Source: Chelativorans petroleitrophicus
GTDB taxonomy: Bacteria; Pseudomonadota; Alphaproteobacteria; Rhizobiales; Rhizobiaceae
Assembly (NCBI RefSeq): GCF_025398195.1
Contig: NZ_JAODNV010000019.1
Location: 1-64,000 of the forward strand
Direction of reading: 5' to 3'
DNA length: 64,000 bases
The notes beneath the pieces are model-generated. The model did not search any database, had not been told where the DNA came from, and saw only the letters and a list, made by a program, of their open reading frames with translations. A program made the position numbers and the translations under genes. Shown piece by piece: positions 42,127-58,687 of this stretch. Numbering within the stretch: the stretch's first letter is position 1; each line of letters begins with the position of its first letter.

Positions 42127-42978
42127 TCAGGCCGCCTGCGTCCAGCCCTCGCGGATGTGGCGGTAGCCGTTGCGATAAACGGCTTCGGGGCTCTCGGCGA
42201 AATCCCGCCAGACCTTCGTCGCCGCGGCGAGGTCCTTCAGTGCACGGCCGAAGGATTCGATGGTGAGCCACCCGTCATAGCCGCTCTGCCGGATGGCCGC
42301 GAACGTCTCCCGCCAGGGAATGTTGCCGCGGCCGGGAACGCCCCGGTCATTCTCCGAAATGTGCACGTGGACGATGTTTCGGGCGTTTCTCGTGAATGCG
42401 CCGATCGGATCGACCTCCTCGATATTGGCATGAAACGTATCGTACATCGCCCTGATGTTCGGATGGCCGATCTCGTCAATATGCGCCGACAGATCGTCCA
42501 TGGTGTTGAGGAAGTAGCATTCGAAGCGGTTGAGCGCTTCCAGCCCTATGGTGACGCCTCGGCTCGCGGCGTGGTCGCCGATGGCGCGCTGGGAGCTGAT
42601 CGAGCGCTTGCGCTCTGAGGCGGTCGGCCCGGTGCCCGTGAAGTGGCCGAGCGCGGAGTGGAGCGGCCCGCTGAGCACGCTCGCGCCGACGGCCGCGGCA
42701 CAGTCGATTGCCCAGCGCATATATTCGATCCCCGCCTTGCGCGTGCCGGCATCGGCCGAGATCAGATTCTTTGCCGGATCGCCAATGGCAGTGACGGCCG
42801 TGCGCTCCAGCCCTATGCGATCAAGCAGGGCCCCAAGCCGGTGGTATTTTTCCGGCGTCCCCTCGAAAATTGGAATTTCGACGCCGTTAAAACCGGTAGC
42901 CTTGATGTCGTGCAGCAGTGCTTCGTGCTTGTTGGAGACGTTGGTCGTCCACAAAAACATGCACATGCCGATTTTCAT
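42127..42978 (-). CDS. Sugar epimerase/isomerase TIM barrel (tagatose 3-epimerase-like)
   Basis: A 283-residue AP-endonuclease-2-type TIM barrel. The ATG at 42978 is chosen by its purine-rich ribosome site (GGGAGGAG) and by MKIGMCMFLW. The four metal ligands of the D-tagatose/D-psicose 3-epimerase family can be placed: Glu in LEALNRFE, Asp in MYDTFHANIEE, His in VHVHISEN followed by GVPGRGNIPW, and Glu in TIESFG. It probably interconverts two keto-sugars at C3 or an aldose/ketose pair. It is divergent from the second TIM barrel at 43303, and a GntR-type operator lies at 43030, 52 bases before its start. Confidence 0.85.
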   Translation of the reverse strand: MKIGMCMFLWTTNVSNKHEALLHDIKATGFNGVEIPIFEGTPEKYHRLGALLDRIGLERTAVTAIGDPAKNLISADAGTRKAGIEYMRWAIDCAAAVGASVLSGPLHSALGHFTGTGPTASERKRSISSQRAIGDHAASRGVTIGLEALNRFECYFLNTMDDLSAHIDEIGHPNIRAMYDTFHANIEEVDPIGAFTRNARNIVHVHISENDRGVPGRGNIPWRETFAAIRQSGYDGWLTIESFGRALKDLAAATKVWRDFAESPEAVYRNGYRHIREGWTQAA

Positions 42979-43029
42979 GATGCTACTCCTCCCCCGGCTC
43001 GTCAGATGCTGTCGTTCGAGCTCGGCTAT

Positions 43030-43040
43030 TGGTAATACCA
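43030..43040. promoter_or_regulatory. GntR-type operator, copy 1
   Basis: TGGTAATACCA fits TGGT-N3-ACCA and is part of the 13-bp palindrome TTGGTAATACCAA (43029-43041). It is 52 bases upstream of the start at 42978. The best candidate binder is the FCD-type GntR protein of 45396. Confidence 0.75.
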
Positions 43041-43207
43041 AATAGGCCGAAGGGTCAAGCAAAGCTCATAAAAGTTGCACCGGAAGACAGGGGCTTCACT
43101 ACACAAAATTTATTGAGAAATCAATTAGATGGACAGAAGGGGCGTTATCTGTCCTACAGCGTCTTGCGGGCAGGCGGAAAGTAGGTTAGACGTTTTTTAC
43201 GCATAAG

Positions 43208-43218
43208 TGGTCGAACCA
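43208..43218. promoter_or_regulatory. GntR-type operator, copy 2
   Basis: TGGTCGAACCA fits the same TGGT-N3-ACCA core. It lies 85 bases upstream of the ATG at 43303, so it can control the epimerase-dehydratase-regulator operon. Confidence 0.7.
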
Positions 43219-43302
43219 GTTTGCGTGTATACGGTTCGGCTGAGGAGGAGATGAGCCGTCCTCCCATCCCGGATGGGCGGCGCAGTGCGGAGGTAGATTT
43301 TC

Positions 43303-44190
43303 ATGCATCTTTCAACCCACAACTGGATGCGGGCGGAGCCCCTGGAGACCACCCTCAGGCGCATCAAGAAGTTTGGCTATGAAAGCATCGAGATTTCCGG
43401 CGAGCCCGAACAGTACGACGTGAAGGAAACGCGCGCTCTTCTCAAGGAGCATGGCATCCGTTGCTGGGGTGCTGTCACGCTGACCCTGGGCGAGCGCAAC
43501 CTCGCCGCCAAGGACGAGGGCCAGCGCGCCCGCTCCGTGGACTATGTGAAGAGTGTCATCACCATGGTTTCCGAGCTCGACGGCGAGATCGTCACCCTGG
43601 TTCCGGCGACTGTGGGCAAGGTGGTGCCGGATGGCTCCGAGGAGGAGGAGTGGAAGTGGGTGGTTGATGCCACCAAGGAATGCTTCGCCCATGCGCAGGC
43701 CAAGGGCGTACGCATAGCCATCGAGCCGCTCAACCGTTTCGAGACCTATCTTTTCAACCGTGCGGCCCAGGCGCTGGCGTTGGCTGACGCCGTTCATCCC
43801 GACTGCGGGGTCTGCCTCGATGCCTTCCACCTCAACATCGAGGAGGAGGATATGTATGAGGCGATCCGGCTTGCAGGCAAACGGCTCTATGATTTTCACG
43901 TCGCCGACAACAACCGCTTTGCCTGTGGCCTTGGCATGCTGGACTGGCCGAAGATCATCGGCACGCTGAAGGAGATCGGCTATGACGGCGCGCTGACGAA
44001 CGAGTTTGTGGCTCCCGTCGATCGCACGCCGGCAGCGAAGTACCCGAACATGGTCGAGCGCAACCCTGTCGACATTCCGCCGGAGCAGCTGAAATTCATC
44101 CAGGACCACGGCTCCAGCCTGTTGACGGAGGAATTCTACGCCGACCAGATGCGAATCACGGCGGAGACCCTCCTGCCGCTGATCAAATAG
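43303..44190 (+). CDS. Sugar phosphate isomerase/epimerase-like TIM barrel
   Basis: A 295-residue relative of the gene at 42127. Ligand positions are Glu in AIEPLNRFE, Asp in CLDAFHLNIEEED, His in DFHVADNN and Glu in LTNEFVAP. MHLSTHNWM starts the first strand. It is shorter in the loop that follows the His (no PGRG, but GLGMLDW) so the substrate is probably different from its divergent paralogue. First gene of a + strand operon with an enolase-superfamily dehydratase, GntR regulator and hydroxyacid dehydrogenase. Confidence 0.85.
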   Translation: MHLSTHNWMRAEPLETTLRRIKKFGYESIEISGEPEQYDVKETRALLKEHGIRCWGAVTLTLGERNLAAKDEGQRARSVDYVKSVITMVSELDGEIVTLVPATVGKVVPDGSEEEEWKWVVDATKECFAHAQAKGVRIAIEPLNRFETYLFNRAAQALALADAVHPDCGVCLDAFHLNIEEEDMYEAIRLAGKRLYDFHVADNNRFACGLGMLDWPKIIGTLKEIGYDGALTNEFVAPVDRTPAAKYPNMVERNPVDIPPEQLKFIQDHGSSLLTEEFYADQMRITAETLLPLIK

Positions 44191-44226
44191 ACGCGGAATT
44201 TCAAAGGCGGCAGGAGACCGGCCGAG

Positions 44227-45399
44227 ATGCGCATACGGAAGGTCGAGGCGTGGTGGGTGCGCGTGCCCATCGAGGAACGGCGGCAGCACCGCAGCGATTT
44301 CGGCCGGACCGTCACCTTTGATGCCGCTATCGTCAGGATCGAGACCGATGACGGGATCGTCGGCTGGGGCGAGGGCAAGAATGCGGCCGGCAGCTCCGGC
44401 AGCTATGGCGCGCTTGTCCATCTGCTCAATCACGAAATCGGCCCGAGACTTATCGGCCGCGATCCCGCTGACATCAGCCCGATCTGGGAAATGCTCTATA
44501 ACGGCGTGCGCCACGAGATGGCCGCCACGGCTGGCCATGCGATGCCGGAGCTTGCCCGGCGCGGGCTGACGGTTGCGGCCATCAGCGCGGTGGACATCGC
44601 GCTGTGGGACATTCTCGGCAAATCGCTCGGCCAGCCGGTGTGGCGGCTGCTTGGCGGCCGCAAGGCCGAGCGCCTGCCCGCGTATGCGTCAGGCGGCTGG
44701 GCGGACGCCGACACGATCGCGGATCAGCTTCGCGGATATATCGAGGCGGGCGGCTTCAAGGCGGTGAAGATGCGCGTGGGTGCCATGGACGGCACGCCGC
44801 ATGTCTCGGCGGAGCGCGTGCGCGCCGCACGGGCCGCTCTCGGGCCGGACACCGACCTGATGGTGGATGCGCACGGAACCTATACGGTCGCGGAGGCGAA
44901 GCGGTTCTGCCGCCTGGTTGCCGACTGCGATCTTGCCTGGTTCGAGGAACCGGTGATCGCGGATGACAAGCCGGGAATGGCGGAAGTCCGGGCGGCGAGC
45001 CACATACCCATTGCCGCGGGCGAATCCGAGGCGACCCGTTTTGCCTTCCGCGACCTTGCGGTGCTGAAGGCGGCGGACATCCTGCAGCCGGACCCCGCCT
45101 TCTGCGGCGGCATCACCGAGGCGATGCGGATTGCCGCGCTTGCTAGCGCGTTCAACCTGCGTTTCGCGCCGCATTTATGGGCTGGCGCACCTTGCTTCTT
45201 TTCCGGCCTGCATGTATGCGCGGCCTCGCCTGCAAGCTTCATCATCGAGTTCTCGCTTGGGGCGAATCCCATGATCCATGACCTCATCGAGGAAGAGGTG
45301 CGTGTGACGGACGGCATGATTGCAATTCCGGAAAAGCCAGGTCTGGGCTTCACCGTGCGTGAAGACTTCCTGCGCGCGCATGCGATAGGGGGACCATGA
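44227..45399 (+). CDS. Enolase-superfamily (mandelate racemase/MLE) enzyme, likely sugar acid dehydratase
   Basis: A 390-residue protein with the N-terminal capping domain (1-125) and the modified TIM barrel (130-370). Visible active-site elements: Lys-Met-Arg in FKAVKMRVG, metal Asp in LMVDAHG, metal Glu in WFEEPV, metal Glu in AAGESEATR, and an acid/base Asp (DILQPDP) with His (FAPHLWAG), the His-Asp dyad of the mandelate-racemase subgroup. Such enzymes usually dehydrate aldonic or aldaric acids to 2-keto-3-deoxy acids. Substrate not readable from sequence. It overlaps the GntR gene by four bases. Confidence 0.87.
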   Translation: MRIRKVEAWWVRVPIEERRQHRSDFGRTVTFDAAIVRIETDDGIVGWGEGKNAAGSSGSYGALVHLLNHEIGPRLIGRDPADISPIWEMLYNGVRHEMAATAGHAMPELARRGLTVAAISAVDIALWDILGKSLGQPVWRLLGGRKAERLPAYASGGWADADTIADQLRGYIEAGGFKAVKMRVGAMDGTPHVSAERVRAARAALGPDTDLMVDAHGTYTVAEAKRFCRLVADCDLAWFEEPVIADDKPGMAEVRAASHIPIAAGESEATRFAFRDLAVLKAADILQPDPAFCGGITEAMRIAALASAFNLRFAPHLWAGAPCFFSGLHVCAASPASFIIEFSLGANPMIHDLIEEEVRVTDGMIAIPEKPGLGFTVREDFLRAHAIGGP

Positions 45400-46109
45400 G
45401 GGAGAACAACCTCCTGCCGGATCTCGCCGCCTATCTCTACGCCCATTCCAACAAGGCGAACGGACGCACGCCGTCCGAACGCGAGCTTGCGGAGCATTTC
45501 GCCGTAAGTCGCGGGCAGATTCGCGAGGCGCTCGCCATTCTGGAGGCCATGCGCATCGTTGAACGGCGTGCCAAGTCCGGCATCTACCTGACGACGACAA
45601 ATGCCAGTGTGGAGGCGATGGCGCTGTTCGCCAGAGCTGGCGTCCCGCTCGATCCGATCCAGATTTACGAGACCGTGGAGCTGCGCAAGATCCACGAGAT
45701 AAAGGCGGCGGAGCTCGCCTGCGAGCGGGCGACCGAGGAGAATTTCGAGCGGCTGAGGGAAATTCTGCGCGCTTCGGAGGAGAGTATCGCCGCCGGGCGC
45801 GGACTCGTACGGGAGGACCGCGACTTTCATCTTGAGATCGTTCGCGCCACCAAGAACAGCGTCTTTCACAAGGTGTGCAGCGTCTACTACATGATGGGCG
45901 AGCAGCGGCTGCCCGTCTATTTCGCCGATCCGGAGCGTTCGCGCATTTCGCACGCGGAGCATATCCAGATTTTCGAGGCGCTTCTCCGCCGCGACGGAAA
46001 TCTGGCCCAGGCGCTGATGAGTGCGCATCTGAAGGGCGCGGAAAGCTACTGGAAGGGTCTGATCGGCAGCCCGGACGAGAAGGAAAGCCGGGAAGAGGAA
46101 CGGGTGTGA
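45396..46109 (+). CDS. GntR-family regulator, FCD type
   Basis: A 237-residue repressor-type protein. The winged helix (about 15-75) includes RTPSERELAEHFAVSRGQIR and the C-terminal FCD domain (about 85-225) has the metal/ligand residues expected (EDRDFHLEIVRATKNS, HAEHIQIFEALLRRD). FadR-subfamily proteins bind TGGT-N3-ACCA-like sites, present three times in this cluster. The ligand is probably a sugar acid of the pathway. Its ATG overlaps the dehydratase stop. Confidence 0.9.
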   Translation: MRENNLLPDLAAYLYAHSNKANGRTPSERELAEHFAVSRGQIREALAILEAMRIVERRAKSGIYLTTTNASVEAMALFARAGVPLDPIQIYETVELRKIHEIKAAELACERATEENFERLREILRASEESIAAGRGLVREDRDFHLEIVRATKNSVFHKVCSVYYMMGEQRLPVYFADPERSRISHAEHIQIFEALLRRDGNLAQALMSAHLKGAESYWKGLIGSPDEKESREEERV

Positions 46110-46112
46110 GCC

Positions 46113-47102
46113 GTGCCGGTCATACTCTCCACCCATCCGCTCCATCCGCAAGTGGAAACCAGGCTTGCCGAGGCGGGGATACTGAGGATAGCGGCGGAGA
46201 GGCAACCGGCGGCGCTCGTCGAAGAGGCCCGGGACGCCGATATCGTTATCGTGCGGGCGCCCCTGCCGCCTGAACTGTTCACCGCCGCACCCCGCCTTCG
46301 TGCCGCCATCCGCCACGGCGCGGGTCTCGACATGATCCCGATAAAGGAAGCAACCGCGGCCGGCGTTCTGGTGGCCAATGTGCCGGGCGCCAATGCCCGT
46401 ACAGTGGCTGAGCACGTCTTTCTGGTGACTCTGGCGATGCTGCGCCGCCTGCGCCTTATGGACCGCGACCTGCGGACATCCGGCTGGTCCGCCGCTCGGG
46501 CACATGCCGATCATGGAGCCGAGCTTTCCGGCCGCATCATGGGCATCGTCGGCATGGGCAATGTTGGCCGCGCGGTTTGCCGTATCGCGCAGGGGTTCGG
46601 CCTGGAGGTGATCGCCAACACCCGCACGCGATCCGCGCTGCCGGAGGGGGTGCGGATGGTCGGGCTCGACGAGCTGTTTGCGCAGGCCGATGTCGTCGTT
46701 TTGTGCTGCCCGCTTACCGACGAGACGCGCGGCCTTGCCGATCGCGCTAGGATCGGGCGGATGAAGCCCACGGCGCTCTTGGTCAATGTCTCGCGCGGTC
46801 CTGTCGTGGACGACGATGCCCTTCTCGCCGCACTGTCTGAAGGTCGGATCGGCGGCGCCGCCCTCGATGTCTTTACCGTCCAGCCGCTCCCCCAGGATCA
46901 CCCCTATTTCGGTTTCGACAATGTGATCCTCACACCGCATGCGGCGGGTATCACGCGGGAAAGCATGCTGCGCATGGGTATGGGGGCTGCCGAGGAGGCC
47001 GTTCGGGTGCTTAAGGGCGAACTGCCAGTGAATCTGTGCAATCCGGAGGCTGTGGCGCTTTACCGGACTCGCTTTCCGCAGCAGCCCTTGCAAGCCGGGT
47101 AG
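46113..47102 (+). CDS. D-2-hydroxyacid dehydrogenase
   Basis: A GTG start four bases behind the GntR stop gives 329 residues of a D-isomer-specific 2-hydroxyacid dehydrogenase. The Rossmann motif is [12 protein letters not shown] near 145, the catalytic Arg is in [10 protein letters not shown] near 228 and the catalytic His in ILTPHAAG near 280. It reduces or oxidises a 2-keto acid with NAD(P)H; here it may act on the dehydratase product. Related phosphoglycerate dehydrogenases are longer. Last gene of the operon. Confidence 0.88.
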
Positions 47103-47186
47103 CGCCGCCTCACGCAATTTCCGCATCTCGCAACTTGCCGCGGCGGGCCCCATATCGGTGAAAACAGGTCAGCCGTGGAGAGCCCC

Positions 47187-48203
47187 ATGATTCCTTTTTC
47201 CGTCCTCGACCTTGCTCCCATCGCGGACGGCGCAACCACAGCCGATGCGCTTTCAAATATCCTTGATCTCGCCCGGCATGCGGAAGCCTGGGGCTACGAA
47301 CGGTTTTGGCTGGCCGAGCATCACAACATGCCCGGCATTGCCAGCGCGGCCACGGCGGTGCTGGCCGCCCATGTGGCGGCGGGCACGAAGCGGATTCGGG
47401 TTGGCGCCGGCGGCATCATGCTGCCCAATCATGCGCCGCTGGTGGTGGCTGAACAGTTCGGGACGCTCGCCACGCTTCACCCGAACCGCATCGACCTCGG
47501 CCTTGGCCGCGCGCCTGGCACTGACATGGTCACCGCTCGCGCCTTGCGTCGGGGCCTGGAACAGGGCGAGGGATTCCCGCGGGATGTGTTGGAGATACTC
47601 TCCTATTTCGATGACCCGCAGCCGGGTCAGGCTGTGCGCGCCATTCCCGGCGCGGGGACCCACGTGCCCGTCTGGATTCTCGGCTCCAGCCTCTATGGGG
47701 CGCAGCTCGCCGCGCAGCTTGGGCTGCCCTACGCCTTCGCCTCCCATTTCGCTCCTGCGGCTCTTGACGACGCACTTGCTCTCTACCGGGAGACGTTCCG
47801 CCCGTCACGCTATTGCGAGCGCCCCCGCTTCATGCTGGCGCTAAATGTCTTCGCCGCCGAAACGGATGAGGAGGGGCTTTTTCTCAAAACCTCCATGCAG
47901 CAGGCCTTCATCAACCTGCGCTCAGGCCGGCCCGGACCCCTGCCAAGGCCGGTCAAGAACCTTTCCGATGAGGTAGAACCTGCGATGATGGCCGCTGTAG
48001 ATCACGCGCTGTCCTTCTCGGCGGCAGGCTCGCCGGAAACCGTGAAGCGGGTGATCTCGGATTTTCTGACACGGTATCGGCCGGACGAAGTTATCATCAC
48101 CGGCCAGATCCACGATCATCGGGCCCGGCTCCGATCCTTCGAGATCGCAGCTGATGTTCTGCGCTCGATCGGCGAGGATGTGAAAGCAGCAGACGATCGG
48201 TAA
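47187..48203 (+). CDS. LLM-class flavin-dependent oxidoreductase
   Basis: A 338-residue luciferase-like TIM barrel. The ATG at 47187 with GGAGAG upstream is preferred to a GTG at 47175. The start ([15 protein letters not shown]) and [29 protein letters not shown] and [17 protein letters not shown] match the MsnO8-like group. Uses FMN or F420 in relatives; no partner reductase lies nearby. A gap of 85 bases separates it from the hydroxyacid dehydrogenase, so co-transcription is possible. Substrate unknown. Confidence 0.87.
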
Positions 48204-48270
48204 GAGCAGTGCCCATCCTAGGAAGTATGCAGCATCCCGCCGCAAGGAAGGGCTCCGCAGCGCCGATAAC

Positions 48271-48377
48271 GGCGGGGCAACGGTCCGCCGGGAGTGGCTC
48301 CCCCCACCCACATTCTCCCGGCGGACCCCCGCCGCCCCCTCCCGAATCCTTTCCGTGTCTCACGGAAGCACGGAAAG
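48271..48377. terminator. Two strong hairpins between convergent genes
   Basis: A 13-bp perfect stem (48282-48294 with 48315-48327) is extended by an outer GGCGGGG/CCCCGCC pairing around 48271 and 48333. A second 9-bp stem follows (CTTTCCGTG 48349-48357 with CACGGAAAG 48369-48377). They separate the flavin oxidoreductase from the convergent ABC transporter genes and probably stop transcription from both sides. Confidence 0.65.
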
Positions 48378-48441
48378 AACTCTGTTGCTGATATTGCGCG
48401 ATTCCGGACGGAAACCAGTGATCGCCTCTCCCGGAAACGCG

Positions 48442-49518
48442 CTAGCCTGCGTGCCTCAGGCTGAGCCCGCTTGAGCCATCGAACAGGATCACTTTCTGCG
48501 GGTTCCACGCGCAGCGCACCGTCTCGTCCACCTCCACCTTGAGCGTGGCTGGAACCGTGGCGCGGAAGATCGTCTGTGCCGCGTTGAGCGTAAGGATCTT
48601 CTCCACGCCGTGGTTTTCCACGTCATGCACCGTGGCTTCGACCGCCGCGCCCGGCTCGACGGAAACGTCCTCCGGCCGGACACCGAAAATGATCGGCCGG
48701 CCCTCATCCGGAACAGCCTGGCCGTTGAGCGGCAGCTCGAACGTGCCGGGTTTAATGACCGCCCGGCCGCCTTGCAGCCGGCCCTCGAACAGATTTATGG
48801 GCGGCGAGCCGACGGAGCGTGCCACAAATGTGTTGCGCGGATTGTTGTAGATTTCGTTCGGCGTGCCGGTCTGCACCAGCCGGCCGCGATCGAGCACGCC
48901 GATCTTGTCGGCCATGGACATGGCCTCTATCTGGTCGTGCGTGACGAAAAGGAAGGTGGCGCCGAGCGTCATCTGCAGGTTTTTCAGCTCCGTGCGCAGC
49001 GCCTCGCGCAGCTTGGCGTCCAGCGCCGACAGGGGCTCGTCCATCAGGAAGACGCGCGGCTTGCGCACGATCGCCCGGCCGATGGAGACACGCTGCATCT
49101 CGCCGCCCGACAGCCTCTCTGTCTTGCGGTCTAGCAGATGCTCGATGCGCAGGATTTTCGCTGCACGGGCCACCCGGTCCCGCATCTCGTCCGGTTCGAC
49201 ACGCCTGATCTTGGCCTTTAGCGGGAATTCGAGATTCTCGCGCACCGTGTAGCGCGGGTAGAGCGAGTATTGCTGCAGCACGAGGGCCACGTCGCGTTCT
49301 GCCGGCCCCCACGTGCCGACGTCGACACCGTCGATGAAAATCTGGCCCTCGGTCGGCTTTTCGAGGCCGGCGATCAACCGAAGTGTTGTCGTTTTGCCGG
49401 CACCGGTCTGCCCGAGGAGGACGAAGAACTCGCCATCGCCGATCTGCAGGTCGAGCTTGCGAAGCGCGGTCGTGGCGCCGAATTTCTTGGTGATGCCCCT
49501 GAGTTCGATATGCGCCAT
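48442..49518 (-). CDS. Carbohydrate ABC transporter, ATP-binding protein 2
   Basis: A 358-residue MalK/UgpC-class ATPase. Walker A GQTGAGKTT near residue 38, signature LSGGEMQRVSIGRAI near 135, Walker B VFLMDEPLSALD near 155, and a C-terminal TOBE domain from about 240. The ATG shares one base with the stop of the ATPase gene upstream (49518). A second, different ATPase in one operon is typical of glycerol-type (GlpST-like) transporters. Confidence 0.92.
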   Translation of the reverse strand: MAHIELRGITKKFGATTALRKLDLQIGDGEFFVLLGQTGAGKTTTLRLIAGLEKPTEGQIFIDGVDVGTWGPAERDVALVLQQYSLYPRYTVRENLEFPLKAKIRRVEPDEMRDRVARAAKILRIEHLLDRKTERLSGGEMQRVSIGRAIVRKPRVFLMDEPLSALDAKLREALRTELKNLQMTLGATFLFVTHDQIEAMSMADKIGVLDRGRLVQTGTPNEIYNNPRNTFVARSVGSPPINLFEGRLQGGRAVIKPGTFELPLNGQAVPDEGRPIIFGVRPEDVSVEPGAAVEATVHDVENHGVEKILTLNAAQTIFRATVPATLKVEVDETVRCAWNPQKVILFDGSSGLSLRHAG

Positions 49519-50627
49519 TACAACCTCACGCCAAGGGAGTTTCCGCTCCTCGTATCGAAGAAATGCGCCTGCGCCGGATCGATGCGCGCCCAGACCTGTT
49601 CACCTGGGCGCGGCACGAAACCGCTTTTCGTGCGCGCGCGCAGGAAACGGTCGCCGATCTGAAGATCGACGATGTCGTGCGAGCCGAGAGGCTCGATAAT
49701 GTGAGCCTCGACCGGCAGATAGCCTTCCCGTTTCTCCCGCTCCACCAGCACGCCCTCGGGCCGCACGCCGAGGCTGATGGCGTCCGGAGAGGCCTTGCCC
49801 GCCTCAAGCAACGCGATGAGCTTGCGGGGGAACGGGAAGCCATGTTCTGCGCCGGGCATGAAGACGCGGGCCTCGTCCTTCTCCTCCGTGATGCGGGCCT
49901 CGGCCACGTTCATGACCGGGCTGCCCACGAATTGCGCGACGAAGAGATTGGCTGGATGGGTGTAAACCTCGTCGGGCGTGCCGACCTGCTGCAGCACGCC
50001 CTCGTTCATGATGACGATGCGGTCAGCCAGCGCCATGGCTTCCACCTGATCGTGCGTGACATAGATGGTGGTAGAGCCCTGCTTTATATGCAGCCGCTTG
50101 ATCTCAGTGCGCATTTCCTCGCGCAGCGTCGCGTCCAGCGCGCCGATCGGCTCATCCATGAGAAGCGCCTTGGGGCTGCGAACCAACGCGCGCCCGATCG
50201 CCACGCGCTGCATGTCGCCGCCCGAAAGCGCGGAAGGCCGGCGCTGCAGAAGCGGCGTGATCTGCAGGATCTCCGCCATCTGCCGCACGGCGCGGTCCAC
50301 TTCTGCCTTGCTCTGGCGCGTGGCGCGCAGCGGGAAGGCGATGTTCTCGTAGACCGTCATGTGCGGGTAGAGCGAGAAGGACTGGAAGACGAAGGCGATG
50401 TCGCGGTCCGCGGCCTTCAGATGCTGCACCGCCTTGCCGTCTATGAGGATGTCTCCCTCGTCGATCGTCTCCAGACCGGCGATGGCGCGCAGCGTCGTCG
50501 TCTTGCCGCAACCGGACGGCCCGAGCATGACGATGAATTCGTTGTCCTCGATGACGAGGTTCATGTCCTTGATGACCTGAACGTCGCCGAAGAACTTCTG
50601 CACTCCGCGAAGCTCGATATGGGTCAT
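49518..50627 (-). CDS. Carbohydrate ABC transporter, ATP-binding protein 1
   Basis: A 369-residue MalK/UgpC-class ATPase. Walker A GPSGCGKTT, signature LSGGDMQRVAIGRAL, Walker B ALLMDEPIGALD and a C-terminal TOBE domain. The ATG at 50627 overlaps the small membrane gene by four bases. The two ATPases would make a heterodimer under the two permeases. Confidence 0.92.
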   Translation of the reverse strand: MTHIELRGVQKFFGDVQVIKDMNLVIEDNEFIVMLGPSGCGKTTTLRAIAGLETIDEGDILIDGKAVQHLKAADRDIAFVFQSFSLYPHMTVYENIAFPLRATRQSKAEVDRAVRQMAEILQITPLLQRRPSALSGGDMQRVAIGRALVRSPKALLMDEPIGALDATLREEMRTEIKRLHIKQGSTTIYVTHDQVEAMALADRIVIMNEGVLQQVGTPDEVYTHPANLFVAQFVGSPVMNVAEARITEEKDEARVFMPGAEHGFPFPRKLIALLEAGKASPDAISLGVRPEGVLVEREKREGYLPVEAHIIEPLGSHDIVDLQIGDRFLRARTKSGFVPRPGEQVWARIDPAQAHFFDTRSGNSLGVRL

Positions 50628-50854
50628 AGGGCGGCTCTCCCCTCGCGCGCGTCTTCCTCCTCTTCGTCCGATGCTTCTGCCTCGAGCGGAATGTGCGAGG
50701 TGATCATGAAGGCGACGAGGCCGACGAGTGTGATGGTCACGCCATAGCGGTGCAGGAACAAGTTCCACGGCTGGCAAAGCGCCACGATGCCGAGGATCAT
50801 CAACGTCTGCGCCGCCGGAACCAGATATTTTTGGTTCAGCTTGCGGAAGGTCAT
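50624..50854 (-). CDS. Small membrane protein of the ABC operon
   Basis: A 76-residue protein with two hydrophobic segments (about 10-28 and 38-54) and an acidic tail (ASDEEEEDAREG). Its start overlaps the permease stop and its stop overlaps the ATPase start, so it is translated as part of the operon and is unlikely to be spurious. A short membrane protein is also found between permease and ATPase genes in glycerol-type transporters (DUF2160), but I cannot confirm homology. Confidence 0.75.
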   Translation of the reverse strand: MTFRKLNQKYLVPAAQTLMILGIVALCQPWNLFLHRYGVTITLVGLVAFMITSHIPLEAEASDEEEEDAREGRAAL

Positions 50855-51807
50855 TTGCGGATCGCTCCGAAGGACATGCCGCGCAGGAGATGGTTGCGTA
50901 GCAGGAAGGTGAAGATAGCGACCGGCAGCAGGAACAGGAACGTGCCGGCGGCAATCGCCGTCCAGTCCGTCAGGCCCGATCCCACCTGGGCCGGAATGAA
51001 GGGCGGCGCCGTCTGTGCGTCGCGGTTGGTCAGCATCAGCGCAAAGGCATATTCGTTCCACGCCGTGATGAAACAGAAGACGGCGGTGGCGGCGATGCCG
51101 GTGGTCGCTTCTGGCAGCACGATCTTGAAGAAGGCCTGCATACGCGTATAGCCGTCGACCAGCGCCGCCTCCTCATATTCCTTCGGGATCTCGTCGATGA
51201 AGCCCTTCATGAGCCACACCGAGAAGGACAGGTTGAAGGCGGTGTAGAGGATGATGAGGCCGATATGCGTATCGGTCATGCCCACCGCGCGGTACATGAG
51301 GAACATCGGGATCGCCACCACCACCGGCGGCAGCATGCGGGTCGACAGGATGAAGAACAACCAGTCCTGCTCCCCCGGCACCCGGAAGCGCGAGAAACCG
51401 TAGGCCGTGAGCGTGCCCATGGAGACGGCGAGCAGCGTGCTCGTCACGGCAACGATCAGGCTGTTCTTGAAGCGGTCGGGATAGCCGGAAAGCTGCACGG
51501 AATCGCCCACCCGCAGCACCCGCTCGCCGCCGTCGTAGATACGCCTCTCCCACCAGGGCGCGGCCTCGTAGACCTCCTCCTCGACCGGCCGAGTAAGCTG
51601 CACCCGCTTGGTGAACAGCTTGATGAAGGGTGTGATCTCCGGCTGGAAGAGAACCGTCGGCGGCACGGTGGTGGCAAGCGCGCGCGGCTTGAACGCAGTG
51701 GAGCCGATCCAGTAGATCGGTGCCAGGAAGATGAGCGTGACGACGATGACCGCCGCGATGGCGAGGCGGTTGGCCAGTCTCTGGCGCGAGGTCTGGACAG
51801 CAGCCAT
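50851..51807 (-). CDS. Carbohydrate ABC transporter, permease 2
   Basis: A 318-residue MalG-type permease with six membrane segments and the EAA loop EEAALVDGYTRMQAFFKIVLP near residues 205-225. A periplasmic insertion of about 60 residues after the first segment (VQLTRPVEEEVYEAAPWWE) is unusually long for MalG types. It pairs with the permease at 51809. Confidence 0.92.
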   Translation of the reverse strand: MAAVQTSRQRLANRLAIAAVIVVTLIFLAPIYWIGSTAFKPRALATTVPPTVLFQPEITPFIKLFTKRVQLTRPVEEEVYEAAPWWERRIYDGGERVLRVGDSVQLSGYPDRFKNSLIVAVTSTLLAVSMGTLTAYGFSRFRVPGEQDWLFFILSTRMLPPVVVAIPMFLMYRAVGMTDTHIGLIILYTAFNLSFSVWLMKGFIDEIPKEYEEAALVDGYTRMQAFFKIVLPEATTGIAATAVFCFITAWNEYAFALMLTNRDAQTAPPFIPAQVGSGLTDWTAIAAGTFLFLLPVAIFTFLLRNHLLRGMSFGAIRK

Positions 51808-51808
51808 C

Positions 51809-52741
51809 TCAGCGCTCCTTCACGCGATTGAGATATTTGATGTAGACGTTGGTTATGGCGATCACCACGATCAGCATGATGTAGGCGAGCGCGCAGGAAA
51901 GCCCGGTCTGCCACTCCTGGAAGGCCATTTTGTACAGTCTGATGGCGATCACTTCCGTGGTAGGCTGGCCGCTCATGATGAAAGGCAGATCGAAGCTCTT
52001 GAACGCCTCCATGGTGCGGAAGATGAGGGCAATCAGGAGCAGCGGCGAGACCAGCGGCAGGGTTATGCGTGTGAAGGTGTACCAGCTCGACGCGCGGTCG
52101 ATCGCCGCCGCCTCGTAAAGATGCTTGGGCACGGCCGAAAGCCCCGCCAGCGACAGCAGCATGACGAAGGGTGACCACATCCAGATATCGGTGATGGCCA
52201 CCGCGTAAAGCGCCATGTCGGGATTGGACAGCCAGTCGAAACGGCCGAGGCCGAGGGCATAGTTGATGATGCCCCAGGACGGATCGTAGAGCAGCTTCCA
52301 GAAGAGGCCCACCACGGCCATAGACATCATCATCGGCAGCAGCAAGAGCGTGGTGACGAAGCCCTTGAAGGGAAAGGCGCGGTTGAGAAGTAGCGCCACG
52401 CCGAAGCCGACAATCATCTGCCCGCCGACCGAAACGATCACATATTTCGCCGTGACGGTGAAGTTGCGCCAGATATTCGGATCGGACAAAAGCCGCCGGT
52501 AGTTTTCGAGGCCGATGAAGCTGGCCGGCGCGTTCACCGAAGCGCGGAAATCCGTGAAAGAGTAGCCAAGCGAGTAGAGCAGCGGAAAGATGTTGAAGAC
52601 GATCAGGAACAGGATCGTCGGAATGATGAACATGTTGCGGATTTTGATGTCGCTCCAGCCGCGGGCGGCGGCGCGCGCCTGCGGATCCAGCCTATCGAGG
52701 GCGGCGGTCGTCACGACCCGGCTCCTTTCGACTTCGGTCAT
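51809..52741 (-). CDS. Carbohydrate ABC transporter, permease 1
   Basis: A 310-residue MalF/UgpA-type permease with six membrane segments and the EAA loop LYEAAAIDRASSWYTFTRIT near residue 215. One base separates it from permease 2. It follows the binding-protein gene after a 59-base gap with a hairpin. Confidence 0.92.
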   Translation of the reverse strand: MTEVERSRVVTTAALDRLDPQARAAARGWSDIKIRNMFIIPTILFLIVFNIFPLLYSLGYSFTDFRASVNAPASFIGLENYRRLLSDPNIWRNFTVTAKYVIVSVGGQMIVGFGVALLLNRAFPFKGFVTTLLLLPMMMSMAVVGLFWKLLYDPSWGIINYALGLGRFDWLSNPDMALYAVAITDIWMWSPFVMLLSLAGLSAVPKHLYEAAAIDRASSWYTFTRITLPLVSPLLLIALIFRTMEAFKSFDLPFIMSGQPTTEVIAIRLYKMAFQEWQTGLSCALAYIMLIVVIAITNVYIKYLNRVKER

Positions 52742-52764
52742 GTCAGTCGGTCATTCAGATTGCC

Positions 52765-52791
52765 ATGGGAGGGAGCGGCGCTCCCTCCCAT
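52765..52791 (-). other. Intercistronic hairpin after the binding-protein gene
   Basis: ATGGGAGGGAGC (52765-52776) and GCTCCCTCCCAT (52780-52791) form a perfect 12-bp stem with a three-base loop between binding protein and first permease. As in the urt operon, it may raise the relative amount of binding protein. Confidence 0.6.
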
Positions 52792-52800
52792 CCTCCGTCC

Positions 52801-54102
52801 CTAGTTCAAGCGGCCATACCTCTTGAACGTCTCCTCCCAGTCTGCGGCAAGGCCGTCGAGCGCTTCCTTGGCCGTTCCCTGGCCGCCCACCACATAAGGA
52901 TAGACGCGGTTGTTCATCTGGCTGAGCAGTTCCGCATATTCCGGCACGGCCCAGAAGTCCTTCACGATCTGCATGGACTGGTAGAACGCCTCGTTGAAAG
53001 GCGTGGCCTTGCGGAATTCTTCGGATTCCAGAACCGCGGCATGGCAGGTGTAGCCGCCGAGTGCGCCCCACTTTTGCTGGACGTCCTCGCGGATGAACCA
53101 CTCGAGGAATTTGAAGGCTTCCTCCTTGTTCTGCGAGTAGCTGACGATCGACATGCCCTGACCGCCCAGCGCTGCGAACTGCGCTCCACCCGGTCCGGCC
53201 GGATTGACGAAATAGCCGGTGTTCTCGGCGTGCGGGTTGGTCGCAGGGTTGGCGAGCGCCGGGAAGAAGGCGAAGTAGTTCATGCTCATCGCCGCCAGAC
53301 CCTCGGTGATCGCCTGGTTGTTCTCCAGGAAGAAGGTCTTGCCCCAGTTGGGCGGCGTGAATTGATAGAGCTCGCGATACATCTCGAGCGCTTCGATGTT
53401 CTCGGGCGAGTTGGTGATGCCCTGAACCTGATAGGTTCCGTAGTCGCCAAGTTCTCCGCCATAGGAGAAGATGGTCTGCTCCACGCCCATGATCAGGCCG
53501 TCATAGGAGTTGTCCGTGTAGATGGCGATGCCGTAACGCCCTTCGTCCGGACGGTGGAAGAACTCCGCGATGTCGCGAAGCTGCTTGTAATCCTTCGGCA
53601 CGTCCAGTTCGTAACCGTACTTCTCCTTGAAGGCCGCCTTTTCGGCCGGATCCTCGAACCAGTCCTTGCGGTAGGCCCAGCCGTTCGCGTCGCCCTCGGT
53701 CGGGATCGCCCAATACTTGCCGTTATATTCGGAGTAGTACTTGATCGTCGCCGGCACGAAGACCTCGTGCAGGTTGTGCTTCTCGAAAAACTCCGTCAGA
53801 TCGACGAAGTGGCCGCCCTCCGAGCCAGCCCCGAGCCACTGGGAATCACCGACCACGAGATCGTAGGCGTCGCCATGGGCGTTGAACTCGGCGAACGCCT
53901 TTGTCTGGAAGTCCGCCCAGGGGGTCGTTTCGACCCGGACCGTGACGCCCGTTTCGGCGGTGTATTCGTTGACCAGTTCCTGCAGGTAGTTGGCAGGATC
54001 CCATTCCGCCCAGAAGATGGTCAGTTCCTGGGCGAAAACGGAGGTTCCGCTGGACAAAACAAGCCCAATGCCGGCGAGCACGCCGGTCAGTTTCATGCGC
54101 AT
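52801..54102 (-). CDS. Carbohydrate ABC transporter, substrate-binding protein
   Basis: A 433-residue family 1 extracellular binding protein with signal peptide (MRMKLTGVLAGIGLVLSSGT, cleavage near VFAQ). ELTIFWAEWDPANYLQELVN opens the mature part; several Trp and Tyr residues (TTPWADFQTK, GYFVNPAGPGG) suit sugar stacking. The GntR-type operator at 54254, about 150 bases upstream, ties it to the catabolic genes at 42-47 kb. The substrate is probably the sugar or sugar acid those enzymes convert. Confidence 0.9.
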   Translation of the reverse strand: MRMKLTGVLAGIGLVLSSGTSVFAQELTIFWAEWDPANYLQELVNEYTAETGVTVRVETTPWADFQTKAFAEFNAHGDAYDLVVGDSQWLGAGSEGGHFVDLTEFFEKHNLHEVFVPATIKYYSEYNGKYWAIPTEGDANGWAYRKDWFEDPAEKAAFKEKYGYELDVPKDYKQLRDIAEFFHRPDEGRYGIAIYTDNSYDGLIMGVEQTIFSYGGELGDYGTYQVQGITNSPENIEALEMYRELYQFTPPNWGKTFFLENNQAITEGLAAMSMNYFAFFPALANPATNPHAENTGYFVNPAGPGGAQFAALGGQGMSIVSYSQNKEEAFKFLEWFIREDVQQKWGALGGYTCHAAVLESEEFRKATPFNEAFYQSMQIVKDFWAVPEYAELLSQMNNRVYPYVVGGQGTAKEALDGLAADWEETFKRYGRLN

Positions 54103-54433
54103 GTCGAATTCCTCCCAATCAATCTACGCATTTGTAGAATGCCGGTATTCCATCCGGCATCCGATCTCCTCCAAATTGCCGCCTCCCGGCGCGAAGCCCT
54201 CCCCTGGCTTCGCTGTCCAGCCGCAGCTTTCCAGCATGCGGCATTCTTCAATCTGGTATTACCAAAGATGAAGTTCCGTCAAGGTCCCTATAGCGCGCTC
54301 CTCCCGTTAACCTCCCTGTAAGAACCGCAATCGGCGCTGTTTTCCGCGATTCCCGGCAGCATATTTCCACAGTGGGGCTTGGCCTTTAGCCGAGAAGCAG
54401 ATTTTCAGACGGTTCGATAAATCCCAAACTGGT
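54103..54433. other. Control region of the ABC transporter
   Basis: 331 bases between the binding-protein start and the end of the TetR gene. It holds the operator copy at 54254 and must hold the transporter promoter. The TetR gene reads into it; I see no clear terminator. Confidence 0.55.
54254..54264. promoter_or_regulatory. GntR-type operator, copy 3
   Basis: TGGTATTACCA is a TGGT-N3-ACCA site, and its flanks match copy 1 (43030) closely; both have ACCAA on one side. It lies 152 bases upstream of the binding-protein start. Confidence 0.7.
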
Positions 54434-55090
54434 CTAGCCAGTTCCTCCTGTTTTGCGGTTTTCCCCCTCCGCGATAGCCGCGCGTACCAAAGCGCCCGCT
54501 GCCCAATCGGCGACCTCCCGGGCCTCTCTCCCCTCAAGCCCCCAGATGTCCTTGAGTACGATCAACATCTCCACGCCAAAAATCAAGGACAAAGCCTGCG
54601 CGAGCCGTTCGACCCGCTTTTCCGGAAGCTCCCGCTTCAGCGGCGCCAGCGCCTGACGCAGCAGTTCGACCCGATGGCCGCGCTTGAATTGCGGCTCGTT
54701 GCCGAGAGCATCGGCCTGCCCCTGCGCCCATTGTTGTAGCGACAGCTTCAGCGCCGCTTTGAACGTGGCCTCGAACTGCTCGAGGCGTGGAAGCGAGGAC
54801 TCGAAAAGTTCGGCAATGCGCTGCTCCGCGCATTGCGAATCCGAGCGCCACGTCAGGATCGGCCCCAGCGCCTCGTCCACTACCGCCTGAACCAGAGCAG
54901 CCTGGCTCGGGAAATAGCGATAGGCGGTGGCACGGGAAACGCCCGCGGCCTCCGCGACCTCGCTGACGGAAGGCGTCACGCCGGCCTGCATGAGCCGGCT
55001 TGCCGTCGCAAGCATAAGACGCCGCGTCCTGGCGCGGGGGCCTCGCTCTGCCTCTTCGGCCAGCTCGAATTGTTGACGTAAGACTTCCAT
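54434..55090 (-). CDS. TetR-family regulator
   Basis: A 218-residue repressor. The ATG at 55090 is chosen; the longer frame upstream is not protein-like. Helix-turn-helix VSEVAEAAGVSRATAYRYF near residues 40-58. It is divergent from the PEP-hydrolase-family gene at 55227 and is therefore its likeliest controller; it may also bear on the transporter. Ligand unknown. Confidence 0.88.
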   Translation of the reverse strand: MEVLRQQFELAEEAERGPRARTRRLMLATASRLMQAGVTPSVSEVAEAAGVSRATAYRYFPSQAALVQAVVDEALGPILTWRSDSQCAEQRIAELFESSLPRLEQFEATFKAALKLSLQQWAQGQADALGNEPQFKRGHRVELLRQALAPLKRELPEKRVERLAQALSLIFGVEMLIVLKDIWGLEGREAREVADWAAGALVRAAIAEGENRKTGGTG

Positions 55091-55226
55091 ATCAATATGA
55101 TACGCACGTCTCAAAAATTTGCAATGGCTTTCGCGCGAGCCGGGTGAACGGAACCTTTCGGGGGTGGCGCGACGGCAGGAAACTGCGGTGCATGCCGCTT
55201 TTGCGACGGACAGGAGGGAAGTCACC

Positions 55227-56075
55227 ATGCCAGCCATTCCGCGCCGGGAGATCCTGGAGAAGTTCCGCGCCATGATCGCGCAGGGCCAGCCGATCATCGG
55301 GGGAGGCGCCGGCACGGGTCTTTCGGCCAAGGCGGAGGAGGCGGGCGGTATCGACCTTATCATCATCTACAATTCCGGCCGGTACCGTATGGCCGGCCGC
55401 GGTTCCGCCGCGGGGCTGCTTGCCTATGGCAACGCCAACGAGATCGTGAAGGAAATGGCGGTCGAGGTTCTGCCGGTGGTCAAGAACACGCCTGTGCTTG
55501 CCGGGGTCAACGGCACGGACCCGTTCGTGCTGATGCCGCAATTCCTGGCCGAGCTGAAGACGATGGGTTTTTCCGGCGTGCAGAATTTCCCAACCATCGG
55601 GTTGTTCGACGGACGCATGCGCCAGAGCTTCGAGGAAACCGGCATGGGCTTCGGCCTTGAGGTGGACATGATCGCGCTGGCGCATGAGCTCGATCTTCTG
55701 ACCACGCCCTACGTCTTCAACACGGATGAAGCCGTTGCCATGACGAAGGCCGGTGCCGACATCGTGGTCGCCCACATGGGGGTGACGACGGGCGGCGCCA
55801 TCGGCGCGACCTCGGCAAAGTCGCTGGATGAATGTGTGGCCGAGATCGACGCGATTGCCGCCGCCGCACGGTCCGTGCGCGAGGATGTCATTGTGCTGTG
55901 CCATGGCGGGCCGATCGCCATGCCCGAGGACGCGCGCTACGTGCTCGAGCGCTGCGAGGGATGCCACGGCTTTTACGGGGCGAGCTCGATGGAGCGGCTG
56001 CCGGTGGAAATGGCGATCCGCGACCAGATCAGGAGCTTCAAGGCACTGCCCCTCAAGACAAAAGCGGGAGGATGA
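55227..56075 (+). CDS. PEP-hydrolase-family TIM-barrel protein
   Basis: A 282-residue protein matching the phosphoenolpyruvate hydrolase-like/TIM-barrel signal transduction family (pfam09370-type): [20 protein letters not shown] near residues 22-42, [44 protein letters not shown] and [12 protein letters not shown]. The family is related to phosphonomutase/isocitrate lyase barrels; its true reaction is uncertain. It commonly follows a UPF0261 (Tm-1-like) gene, but none is seen here. It is directly followed by a cupin gene. Confidence 0.85.
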
Positions 56076-56076
56076 A

Positions 56077-56490
56077 ATGACCGGGGAGAAGTTCTTCGTC
56101 TATCCGGACAAGGTGGACACTTTTGCCTTCGATTGGGGCAGACTGGCGCTGACCGTCGGGCCGGAGGTGAACGGTGCTGAGCGGTTCTCGGGCGGCGTGG
56201 TGGACCTGCAGAAGGGCCAGGGGCATGCCCGTCACAATCATCCCGGCGCGGAGGAAATCATCTTTGTCGTCTCCGGCACCGGCGAGCAGATGGTGGAAGA
56301 CGAAAACGGCAATCCGGTCGTCCAGCAAGTGGGGCCCGGCTGCACGATCTATGTGCCCGAAAGCCGCTTTCACTCCACGCTAAACACGGGCGATGGACCG
56401 ATGCGCCTCTTCGTGGTGTATGCGCCGGCAGGACCGGAGCAGGCCCTGCGCGAACTACCCGATTTTCGGCTGATACCGGCGGAGAAGTAG
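56077..56490 (+). CDS. Cupin-domain protein
   Basis: A 137-residue single-domain cupin. Metal ligands can be placed in HARHNHPGAEEIIFVVSG (His, His, Glu) and a final His in ESRFHSTLNTG. GGAGGA precedes the ATG two bases after the barrel gene. Small cupins of this kind act as sugar isomerases, dioxygenases or sensors; the pairing suggests one pathway with the barrel protein. Confidence 0.85.
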   Translation: MTGEKFFVYPDKVDTFAFDWGRLALTVGPEVNGAERFSGGVVDLQKGQGHARHNHPGAEEIIFVVSGTGEQMVEDENGNPVVQQVGPGCTIYVPESRFHSTLNTGDGPMRLFVVYAPAGPEQALRELPDFRLIPAEK

Positions 56491-57308: not shown

Positions 57309-58493
57309 TCAGTCGCGCGGCATACCGCCTCTGTTCCATCCCCTGCCGCGATCGCCGAACATCTGGTAGCCATCCGGCGTCACCGCCAGCGTGTCTTCAA
57401 GCTTGATGAAACCACGCGTGGGATGCAGCATGGTCGTCTCGACGGAGATCACCATGCCCGCCTCCAAAGGCCGGGCCGCATCGACTCCCTCATAGGTGAC
57501 GGGGTGGTTGGTGGTCAGGAACGGCACCTCATGGGTGATCAGCCCCATGCCGTGGGCGAAGAAATCGGTGTAGGCGGCCACGGGCAAGGTCTTCAGCGTC
57601 TCTTCGGCGGCCGCGATCACGTCGCCGCCCTGCGTGCCGGCGGCGACCTTGGAGAAGGCGGCCTGCTGGACGGTTTCCACGTAGCCCAGCAGATCCTCCA
57701 GCTCCGCATCGGGCTCGCCAAGAATGCCCATGCGGCAGAGATCGCCGATATAGCCCTGATAGTTGCCACCCGAATCGATGGACAGCACCTCGCCCTGCTG
57801 CCACTTCTGTTCGGAAGCGGCACGATTGTGGCTCGAGCCGAGCGTCAGCAGGCAATATTCGAAAGTGAGACCGCGCTTCGTCTCCTCCTGGCGCAGCCGG
57901 TCTATGATCTCGCGCTTGGTCGTGCCCTCCTGCGCCCAGCCGATCGTTGCCAGCATGGCATCGGTGATGCGCTCCGAAGCAAGCCGCAGCTTCTCCAGTT
58001 CCTCGCCGGACTTGATCGCCCGCAGGCGCTCCAGCATGCCTGTCGCATCAACCAGGCGCGCGCCTTCGAGCCTGTCGGAAAGCAGCCGGTATGCGTCGGC
58101 GGGCAGGAAGCCCGGCTCAATGCCAATGGCAGCACTGGTCCTGCCAATTTTCTTCAGATGCTCGAGGGCAGTCTCCGCCGCATCCAGCGTGCCCCAGCAG
58201 GCCGGGTAAAAGGCAGGCGTCCAGAAAGGATGGTTCTGGTGCTCGCCCGCTTCCATGCGGTTGGCGATATAGGCGGCCTGTTCTGGCTGCCCTTTCACAT
58301 AGATCACGATCGGCAGATAGCGGCTGTGACCGATCGCATCCATGGCGGAAAAGAAGATGAACCGGTAGCCCCCGAGAAGATATTGCGTGTTGTGCTTGGA
58401 CGTGGCCACCAGCACGTCGATGCCTGCTTCCTCCATCAGCCGGTCGGCGCGCTGCGTGTCGAACGGAATGCTTGTCCCCATGCCTGAATTCAC
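57309..58493 (-). CDS. M24-family metallopeptidase (Xaa-Pro dipeptidase-like)
   Basis: A 394-residue pita-bread-fold protein. The GTG at 58493 follows AGGAGGAGG with normal spacing and is preferred to the ATG at 58481. N-terminal creatinase-like domain (1-165), then catalytic domain with five metal ligands: Asp in SIDSGG, Asp in YIGDLCRMG, His in FAHGMGL, Glu in VISVETTML and Glu in IKLEDT. It could be a proline peptidase or a creatinase-type hydrolase. Single gene. Confidence 0.87.
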   Translation of the reverse strand: MNSGMGTSIPFDTQRADRLMEEAGIDVLVATSKHNTQYLLGGYRFIFFSAMDAIGHSRYLPIVIYVKGQPEQAAYIANRMEAGEHQNHPFWTPAFYPACWGTLDAAETALEHLKKIGRTSAAIGIEPGFLPADAYRLLSDRLEGARLVDATGMLERLRAIKSGEELEKLRLASERITDAMLATIGWAQEGTTKREIIDRLRQEETKRGLTFEYCLLTLGSSHNRAASEQKWQQGEVLSIDSGGNYQGYIGDLCRMGILGEPDAELEDLLGYVETVQQAAFSKVAAGTQGGDVIAAAEETLKTLPVAAYTDFFAHGMGLITHEVPFLTTNHPVTYEGVDAARPLEAGMVISVETTMLHPTRGFIKLEDTLAVTPDGYQMFGDRGRGWNRGGMPRD

Positions 58494-58687
58494 GACGCTC
58501 CTCCTCCTGATTCCTGACACTGGGTGCATCTGGTCGGACCAATTTCGCACGGCGTGAGAGCGGCGTCCAGAGTTTCTCGATGGCGGATGTCACTCCAGGC
58601 GGAGCTCAGCCTTTGGTTATTGCGTGCCGAAAGACCGGCGCCGCGAATGCCGCAACGGTAAACAGGAGCGCACTGATGACAAGAAAT

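Follow-up and report, generated by a model that had tools for sequence, protein, structure and literature searches.

The first 64,000 nucleotides of contig NZ_JAODNV010000019.1 of Chelativorans petroleitrophicus (this whole stretch is called the window) very probably carry a catabolic regulon controlled by a GntR-type regulator of the FCD class, referred to here as GntR. Sequence comparison points to at least four transcription units (Table 1): the gene of an epimerase-like barrel (EpiA); a divergent operon coding for a second such barrel (EpiB), an MR/MLE protein (MLE), GntR itself and a D-2-hydroxyacid dehydrogenase (DHA); the operon of an ATP-binding cassette (ABC) transporter; and the gene of an M24-family enzyme. 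By comparative standards, the co-regulation of this gene set by the cluster-encoded GntR can be taken as real with high confidence. The regulon occurs in 69 of the 297 genomes sampled from the family, roughly one in four, and also on pSymA of S. meliloti and pRL12 of R. johnstonii 3841, both plasmids of model symbionts. As it combines a defined operator, a regulator and one binding protein, its substrate should be straightforward to seek. Literature searches aimed at the locus returned no description of the regulon, and the locus does not figure in passages of PMC3333776, PMC1557990 and PMC4136779.

Operator sites in the window and its relatives

The core operator, TGGTNNNACCA, had been read in the initial annotation at 43030, 43208 and 54254, and these three exact sites were confirmed; two more had been overlooked, an exact core at 58531 and a degenerate one at 54430. 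As the operator at 58531 lies upstream of the M24 gene, the regulon also holds this gene. The window contains five exact matches against 0.31 expected from shuffles, the fifth being at 34681. The 29 core sites of the window's own genome were scored with a weight matrix whose 114 training sites all came from other genera, and the three highest scores fell to 43030 (26.6), 54254 (24.7) and 58531 (23.6). The sites at 43030 and 54254 are one and the same 11-mer, read on opposite strands, which none of the other core sites of the genome shares. Two candidates were rejected as operators, namely 34681, which lies within a sulfatase-like reading frame (34243-35778) and has a low motif score (7.5), and the fourth-ranked site of the genome, C10:14663, which lies inside a reading frame.

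Conservation was examined in stretches of 20 kb (less in a few cases) around the regulator gene from 40 genomes, all chosen for carrying the regulator: 38 of the 68 regulator-bearing genomes other than the window's, and two of the same genus. S. meliloti 1021 pSymA and R. leguminosarum WSM1325 were added, giving 42 stretches, or 43 regions with the window. At least one exact core stands in the 330 bp before EpiB in all 43 regions (82 cores; shuffle mean 0.10). The transporter promoter was within reach in only 29 of the 43 stretches, and all 29 have one or more exact cores in the 400 bp preceding the binding-protein gene (51 cores; shuffle mean 0.07). The two counts are not made of independent cases, because the genomes are related and were selected for the regulator. 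In the alignments, the arms of the core are 98-99% conserved versus 45-46% for other columns; a further 5 and 12 non-core columns also reach 95%, partly in TTGAC and ribosome-site stretches.

The four genes from EpiB to DHA are all present in 40 of the 42 relatives' stretches; 25 include EpiA, and 31 cover the five main transporter genes. Among 17 genomes searched for an EpiA gene outside the stretch, 16 have one, and 11 of these displaced genes have a site scoring like the training sites 21-67 bp upstream. Relatives of GntR (E 1e-50 or better) make up the 69 genomes mentioned above and span 30 of 109 genera; EpiB occurs in 70 of the 297 genomes and is accompanied by the regulator in 69, the exception being G104, which has EpiB and no GntR match. 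Conserved sites in all EpiB and binding-protein promoter regions covered, the co-occurrence of regulator and epimerase, and the sites before displaced EpiA genes thus bear out the earlier proposal that the catabolic genes and the transporter form one GntR regulon. A proposed scan for the motif elsewhere had a mixed outcome. The bare core failed it (see below), and an extended pattern, WWYTGGTNNNACCARWW, passed, with 25 sites in six whole genomes versus 6 for a reversed control. Of these, 22 lie at promoters of the gene set (an extra barrel gene and a DJ-1 gene, described below, included) and two in reading frames; the remaining one, G290:C4:21858, was left unclassified.

Several observations weigh against the regulon as drawn. 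Genome-wide, the bare core shows no enrichment (29 sites versus 46 for the reversed control) and is therefore insufficient to justify a regulon; the extended motif and the conservation carry the claim. The window's own O2 sites, the second members of the operator pairs discussed below, are weak: with 14.5, 43208 comes sixth of the 29, and the degenerate 54430 reaches 14.4. A terminator-like call on the + strand also falls on the palindrome at 54430, where the genes run on the other strand. Further, five of the 16 displaced EpiA genes have no site within 350 bp. An upstream site was found at 21 of 30 loci of the extra barrel (30 of 44 matches were scored), a count whose cases are not independent because many of these sites are the cluster's own O1 and O2, and at 8 of 30 DJ-1 loci (30 of 33 matches scored); the copies of both genes in the window's own genome have no site. 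The genome-wide deficit of the core would fit the view that the palindromes are functionless matches of chance or composition, which is nonetheless barely credible. It was rejected on the conservation in promoter regions, at 43 of 43 and 29 of 29 against shuffle means of about 0.1, and on the matrix ranking, and the sites at 11 of 16 displaced EpiA genes also speak against it.

It is improbable that the sites belong to another FCD regulator of similar recognition, with the cluster's own GntR acting otherwise. TGGT-type half sites are also used by FadR-group regulators, and FCD proteins often share TGGT-ACCA cores. The window's genome holds 11 matches to the GntR protein, itself included, and the FCD regulator NanR recognises direct repeats of TGGTATAW (PMC4494728), both of which would suit such an assignment. 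Against it stand the presence of GntR in 69 of the 70 EpiB genomes, the position of its gene inside the regulated operon and the clustering of the genome's three top-scoring sites at this one locus.

The regulator, its promoters and possible looping

The initial annotation had placed a GntR gene of the FCD type at 45396, and the domain matches support it (PF00392, 41.9 bits against a cut-off of 27; PF07729, 82.4 bits against 24.3). GntR shares its domain layout with the FadR-group FCD regulators (FadR, LldR, UxuR, NanR, PmiR and DhdR), which also include structure matches: a model of the protein, with a mean predicted local distance difference test (pLDDT) score of 81.5, matches the structures of PmiR, DhdR, NanR, Atu1419 and FadR. 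Of the named FCD equivalogs tried (NanR, LldR, UxuR, PdhR, GlcC and ExuR), none reached its NCBIfam cut-off; the best was NanR with 98.7 of 260 bits, and LldR and UxuR gave 68 of 311 and 66 of 442. The residues D141, H145, H189 and H211, a putative metal site, are invariant in 41 sequences and conform to the Asp/Asn plus three His pattern, and E28, R39 and R43 are likewise invariant. The spacing of the putative metal site equals that of the HypR site D138/H142/H186/H208 (PMC6608401). By analogy, the effector is expected to be a carboxylate.

Each main promoter region carries a pair of operators, O1 and O2 (43 of 43 and 29 of 29, one mismatch being allowed where needed). When the outermost sites are taken, with one mismatch permitted if there are fewer than two exact sites, the distance from O1 to O2 is 175-181 bp in 34 of the 43 divergent regions (range 139-181); in the transporter regions it is 160-184 in 27 of 29 and 65 in the other two. 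The motif TTGAC lies 12-13 nt upstream of the transporter O1 in 29 of 29 regions and 13-14 nt upstream of the EpiA-facing O1 in 35 of 43, and it is found at O2 in none of the 29 or the 43. O1 probably covers the spacer and the -10 element of a promoter with TTGAC as its -35 element, and such a position would explain the A/T-rich centre of O1. Conserved columns also suggest a possible EpiB promoter, CTTGC (43163-43167) and TTAGAC (43186-43191), just upstream of 43208. A scan for consensus sigma-70 promoters found none in the three window regions, a further point against the reading, so that the promoter boxes rest on conservation.

GntR is predicted, with good support, to bind the palindromes as a repressor. 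At EpiA and the transporter, a repressor sitting on O1 would overlap the spacer and the -10 element and so block access of RNA polymerase. Release would follow the binding of a carboxylate, probably one of the pathway's sugar acids, at D141, H145, H189 and H211. A precedent for the paired operators is Atu1419 of A. fabrum, an FCD regulator of the VanR group, which has palindromes 190 bp apart and forms loops seen by electron microscopy (PMC7797058). The FCD fold match, the Asp/Asn-His-His-His metal site, the far-apart palindrome pairs and likely repression are common to both systems, and E28, R39 and R43 of GntR are spaced like Glu34, Arg45 and Arg49 of Atu1419. However, the Atu1419 palindrome is ATGTATACAT rather than TGGTNNNACCA, the two proteins are about 17% identical, and the tetramer and loop demonstrated for Atu1419 are a possibility for GntR.

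By this analogy, looping is plausible, and we see the prospect as evenly balanced that two dimers at O1 and O2 may hold a DNA loop. The alternative, in which the two operators act independently with two dimers and no loop, falls only somewhat short of an even prospect; O2 at EpiB would then repress the EpiB promoter, and the transporter O2 would be auxiliary or an activator site. The O1-O2 distance is not uniform (139-184, with two genomes at 65), distinct spacings show no significant helical phasing (n R2 0.84 and 0.22), and in the divergent region each operator adjoins its own likely promoter, all of which suits independent operators; the phasing result also weighs against the loop. In contrast, the transporter region has two sites and one visible promoter, with no TTGAC near O2 in 29 regions, and Atu1419 does loop, across 190 bp. 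Computed per genome, the divergent regions do show some phasing (n R2 7.6; 2.6 for the transporter regions), but these genomes are related. The O1/O2 layout makes the regulon a clean test case for looping being common among FCD repressors.

Beyond the family, a beta-proteobacterial plasmid of Diaphorobacter carries GntR, DHA and MLE genes side by side, with identities of 39%, 43% and 62%, respectively. Two copies of TGGTTTAACCA, 14 bp apart, lie just upstream of its GntR gene; 4 of 100 shuffles of this stretch also gave two.

Table 1. Genes and operators of the regulon and its surroundings in the window
Feature	Position	Strand	Sequence	Basis or remark
EpiA, xylose-isomerase-like barrel, ketose-3-epimerase-like	42127..42984	-		PF01261
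Operator O1, EpiA promoter	43030..43040		TGGTAATACCA	TTGAC box, - strand, 43054-43058, 13 nt off
Operator O2, EpiB side	43208..43218		TGGTCGAACCA	178 bp from O1
EpiB, second xylose-isomerase-like barrel	43303..44190	+		closest to IolO (5-keto-L-gluconate epimerase)
MLE, MR/MLE (enolase superfamily), probable acid-sugar dehydratase	44227..45399	+		PF02746 + PF13378
GntR/FCD regulator, probable repressor	45396..46109	+		PF00392 + PF07729
DHA, D-2-hydroxyacid dehydrogenase	46113..47102	+		PF00389 + PF02826
LUX, luciferase-like monooxygenase	47175..48203	+		PF00296; between DHA and transporter
ABC transporter ATPase 2	48442..49518	-		74-75% identical counterparts in S. meliloti, R. leguminosarum
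ABC transporter ATPase 1 (UgpC/MalK-like)	49518..50642	-		404 bits, below cut-off of 432
Small protein between permease and ATPase genes	50624..50854	-		no Pfam family; kept in relatives
ABC permease (GlcU/MalG/UgpE-like)	50851..51807	-		below cut-offs
ABC permease (UgpA/GlcT/MalF-like)	51809..52741	-		below cut-offs
Sugar-binding protein	52801..54102	-		PF01547; nearest solved 5IAI
Operator O1, transporter promoter	54254..54264		TGGTATTACCA	TTGAC box, - strand, 54278-54282, 13 nt off
Degenerate operator O2, transporter promoter	54430..54440		TGGTCTAGCCA	one mismatch; 176 bp from O1
TetR-type regulator, neighbour module	54434..55090	-		69% counterpart annotated TetR/AcrR in R. leguminosarum
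PEP-hydrolase-like TIM barrel, neighbour module	55209..56075	+		PF09370; nearest solved 2P10
Cupin protein, neighbour module	56077..56490	+		PF07883
M24-family (Xaa-Pro peptidase/creatinase fold) enzyme	57309..58550	-		PF00557 + PF01321; likely ATG 58481
M24 gene operator	58531..58541		TGGTCGGACCA	about 50 bp upstream of likely ATG

Enzymes, transporter and a proposed pathway

Pfam matches agree with the enzymes as first described, namely two AP_endonuc_2 barrels, an MR/MLE protein and a D-2-hydroxyacid dehydrogenase, and with the binding protein. EpiA and EpiB are 29% identical. The best NCBIfam match of EpiA is D-psicose 3-epimerase (159 bits) and that of EpiB to IolO reaches 146 bits, each below a cut-off of 300. 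E149, D182, H208 and E243 of EpiA are invariant in 26 of 26 sequences, as are E141, D173, H199 and E234 of EpiB in 43 of 43; we take these to be the metal residues of the tagatose-3-epimerase family. Both barrels thus have the family and the metal-site residues in common with IolO (TM0416) and the D-tagatose/D-psicose 3-epimerases, at bit scores below the cut-offs. In MLE, K181, R183, D214, E266, D289, H316 and E341 are invariant in 31 sequences and E240 nearly so, and they would presumably supply the Lys base, the three metal acids and the His-Asp dyad of the superfamily's dehydratases. MLE scores below the cut-offs of the galactonate and arabinonate dehydratase equivalogs (216 of 311 and 215.6 of 650 bits). 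Its nearest solved structures, whose entry names are generic, include 4GGB/4HPN and 3OZM/3H12, the latter presumably Bordetella proteins. DHA keeps G147, G149, G152, R228 and H276 in 41 of 41 sequences.

A search of 398 genomes across the phylum at E 1e-90 turned up MLE in 8, every one of them a member of this family, and the best 80 of 500 MLE relatives in named genomes include those of Rhizobium, Mesorhizobium, Phyllobacterium, Sinorhizobium/Ensifer, Aquibium, Chelativorans and Ferirhizobium. Separately, haloarchaeal plasmids with an MLE relative (44-45%; L141:4314-19614 and L142) hold several MR/MLE genes close together.

The transporter is complete, as originally described: the binding protein, two permeases and one ATPase were recognised by family match and the second ATPase through its 74-75% counterparts, of which that in R. 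leguminosarum is annotated as an ABC ATP-binding protein. Its description as distant did not hold, as in relatives it is usually the direct neighbour, other genes intervening only in some. The binding protein did not reveal the substrate; the structure model of this protein (mean pLDDT 78) matches many sugar-binding proteins at about 20% identity.

In the proposed mechanism, the pump would bring in a carbohydrate or sugar acid, EpiA and EpiB would epimerise it next to a keto group, and DHA would reduce a 2-keto sugar acid. MLE would dehydrate the product to a 2-keto-3-deoxy acid, which would enter central metabolism via enzymes coded elsewhere. This chemistry, with all enzymes acting around C2-C3 of one sugar acid, is the weakest step of the analysis, and we put it forward tentatively, as a doubtful proposal. 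Two further results tell against the overall reading: the enzymes run against NCBIfam fell below the curated cut-offs of the families listed, so that naming them as these equivalogs was rejected, and the cluster showed no recognisable kinase or aldolase.

The initial annotation could name no pathway that the combination matches; the proposed logic nevertheless has a parallel, as it resembles a published route in Luteolibacter LG18 for L-glucose and L-galactose. The dehydratase and the reductase of that route belong to the UxaA and UxaB families. The LG18 pathway (LguA-H) is a series of epimerase, reductase and dehydratase steps leading to 2-keto-3-deoxygluconate (PMC12632266). In it, a ketoaldonate epimerase of the tagatose-3-epimerase family is followed by a reductase and then an aldonate dehydratase, an order that the present proposal resembles. 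However, the LG18 enzymes are annotated as altronate dehydratase (assayed with Fe2+ and dithiothreitol) and altronate oxidoreductase, in place of MR/MLE and D-2-hydroxyacid dehydrogenase proteins; further, its regulator is annotated as Btr-type and its epimerase gene lies outside the cluster. The pathway logic thus has a precedent in LG18, with a different enzyme set.

The M24 gene and the neighbouring module

In relatives, EpiA usually faces the EpiB-MLE-GntR-DHA genes; next comes the transporter, which is encoded on the opposite strand, followed by TetR, Tm-1-like, PEP-hydrolase-like and cupin genes and often the M24 gene. The M24 gene was seen in 22 genomes, in which it is divergent in 12, downstream of the cupin gene in 9 and distant in one (G118, with a core 809 bp upstream). 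An exact core lies close upstream (within about 200 bp) of the divergent gene in 12 of 12 cases, and none was mapped in the 9 cases downstream of cupin. The M24 protein has no relative in the PDB at E 1e-20. A weak operator-like site, CTGGTCCTGCCAA, was also noted at 58136 (score 10.4), within the M24 gene and 395 bp from its operator; it is possibly a second, degenerate M24 site.

In many relatives, an extra pair of genes, coding for an IolE-like barrel and a levoglucosan-dehydrogenase-like Gfo/Idh/MocA protein, stands behind the same operators. This pair is sometimes far from the cluster (L068:4557-6925, L146, L225).

The co-regulated genes might serve two substrates, one handled by the pump, the epimerases, MLE and DHA and the other by M24, DJ-1 and the PEP-hydrolase-like/cupin module, a possible though rather unlikely division. 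At the TetR, Tm-1-like, PEP-hydrolase-like and cupin genes no GntR core was mapped, with the exception of the transporter O2 and of one core in L087 that is far from its neighbours, and outside the family one relative has retained no more of the set than GntR, DHA and MLE, as two substrates would allow. Against this division, the divergent M24 gene has its own GntR site in every case, and the modules lie side by side in many genera. The regulon could also be read as a rhizobial pathway, unnamed in the literature searched, that degrades a nitrogen-linked or otherwise conjugated sugar acid, which as a whole is a long shot. The M24 hydrolase (together with DJ-1 in some species) would free the sugar acid, which the two barrels would epimerise. 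DHA and MLE would then turn it into a 2-keto-3-deoxy acid, a product to be processed by the PEP-hydrolase-like/Tm-1-like/cupin module. If this were true, Tm-1, an antiviral protein of plants, would have its ancestor in an enzyme of sugar-acid catabolism.

For the Tm-1-like/PEP-hydrolase module we know of no established bacterial function. The Tm-1-like (UPF0261) gene lies between the TetR and PEP-hydrolase-like genes in 26 of the 27 relatives' stretches that hold TetR together with PEP-hydrolase or cupin; it is gone from the window's locus (55090-55209), and contig C68 of the window's genome carries a 56% relative. The TetR-type regulator has no NCBIfam match at 1e-8. The UPF0261 domain is called uncharacterised in PMC5028733. 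Three S. meliloti genes whose locus tags may belong to this region have appeared in publications: SMa1353, annotated as D-tagatose 3-epimerase and tabulated in an acid-stress study (PMC4941405); SMa1354, an isomerase (PMC12542648); and SMa1334, which codes for 398 residues and whose mutants are symbiotically normal (PMC3462710). By length and gene order, SMa1334 is probably the Tm-1-like gene.

The interval between DHA and the transporter holds other genes in some genomes. In the relative G230 an amidase gene stands there (L074:11064-12359), with no core mapped beside it. In the window the interval is occupied by LUX, which has no match of at least 45% identity in the stretches of the 42 relatives; it was rejected as a part of the system and, from this comparison, is read as an insertion in the window's lineage.

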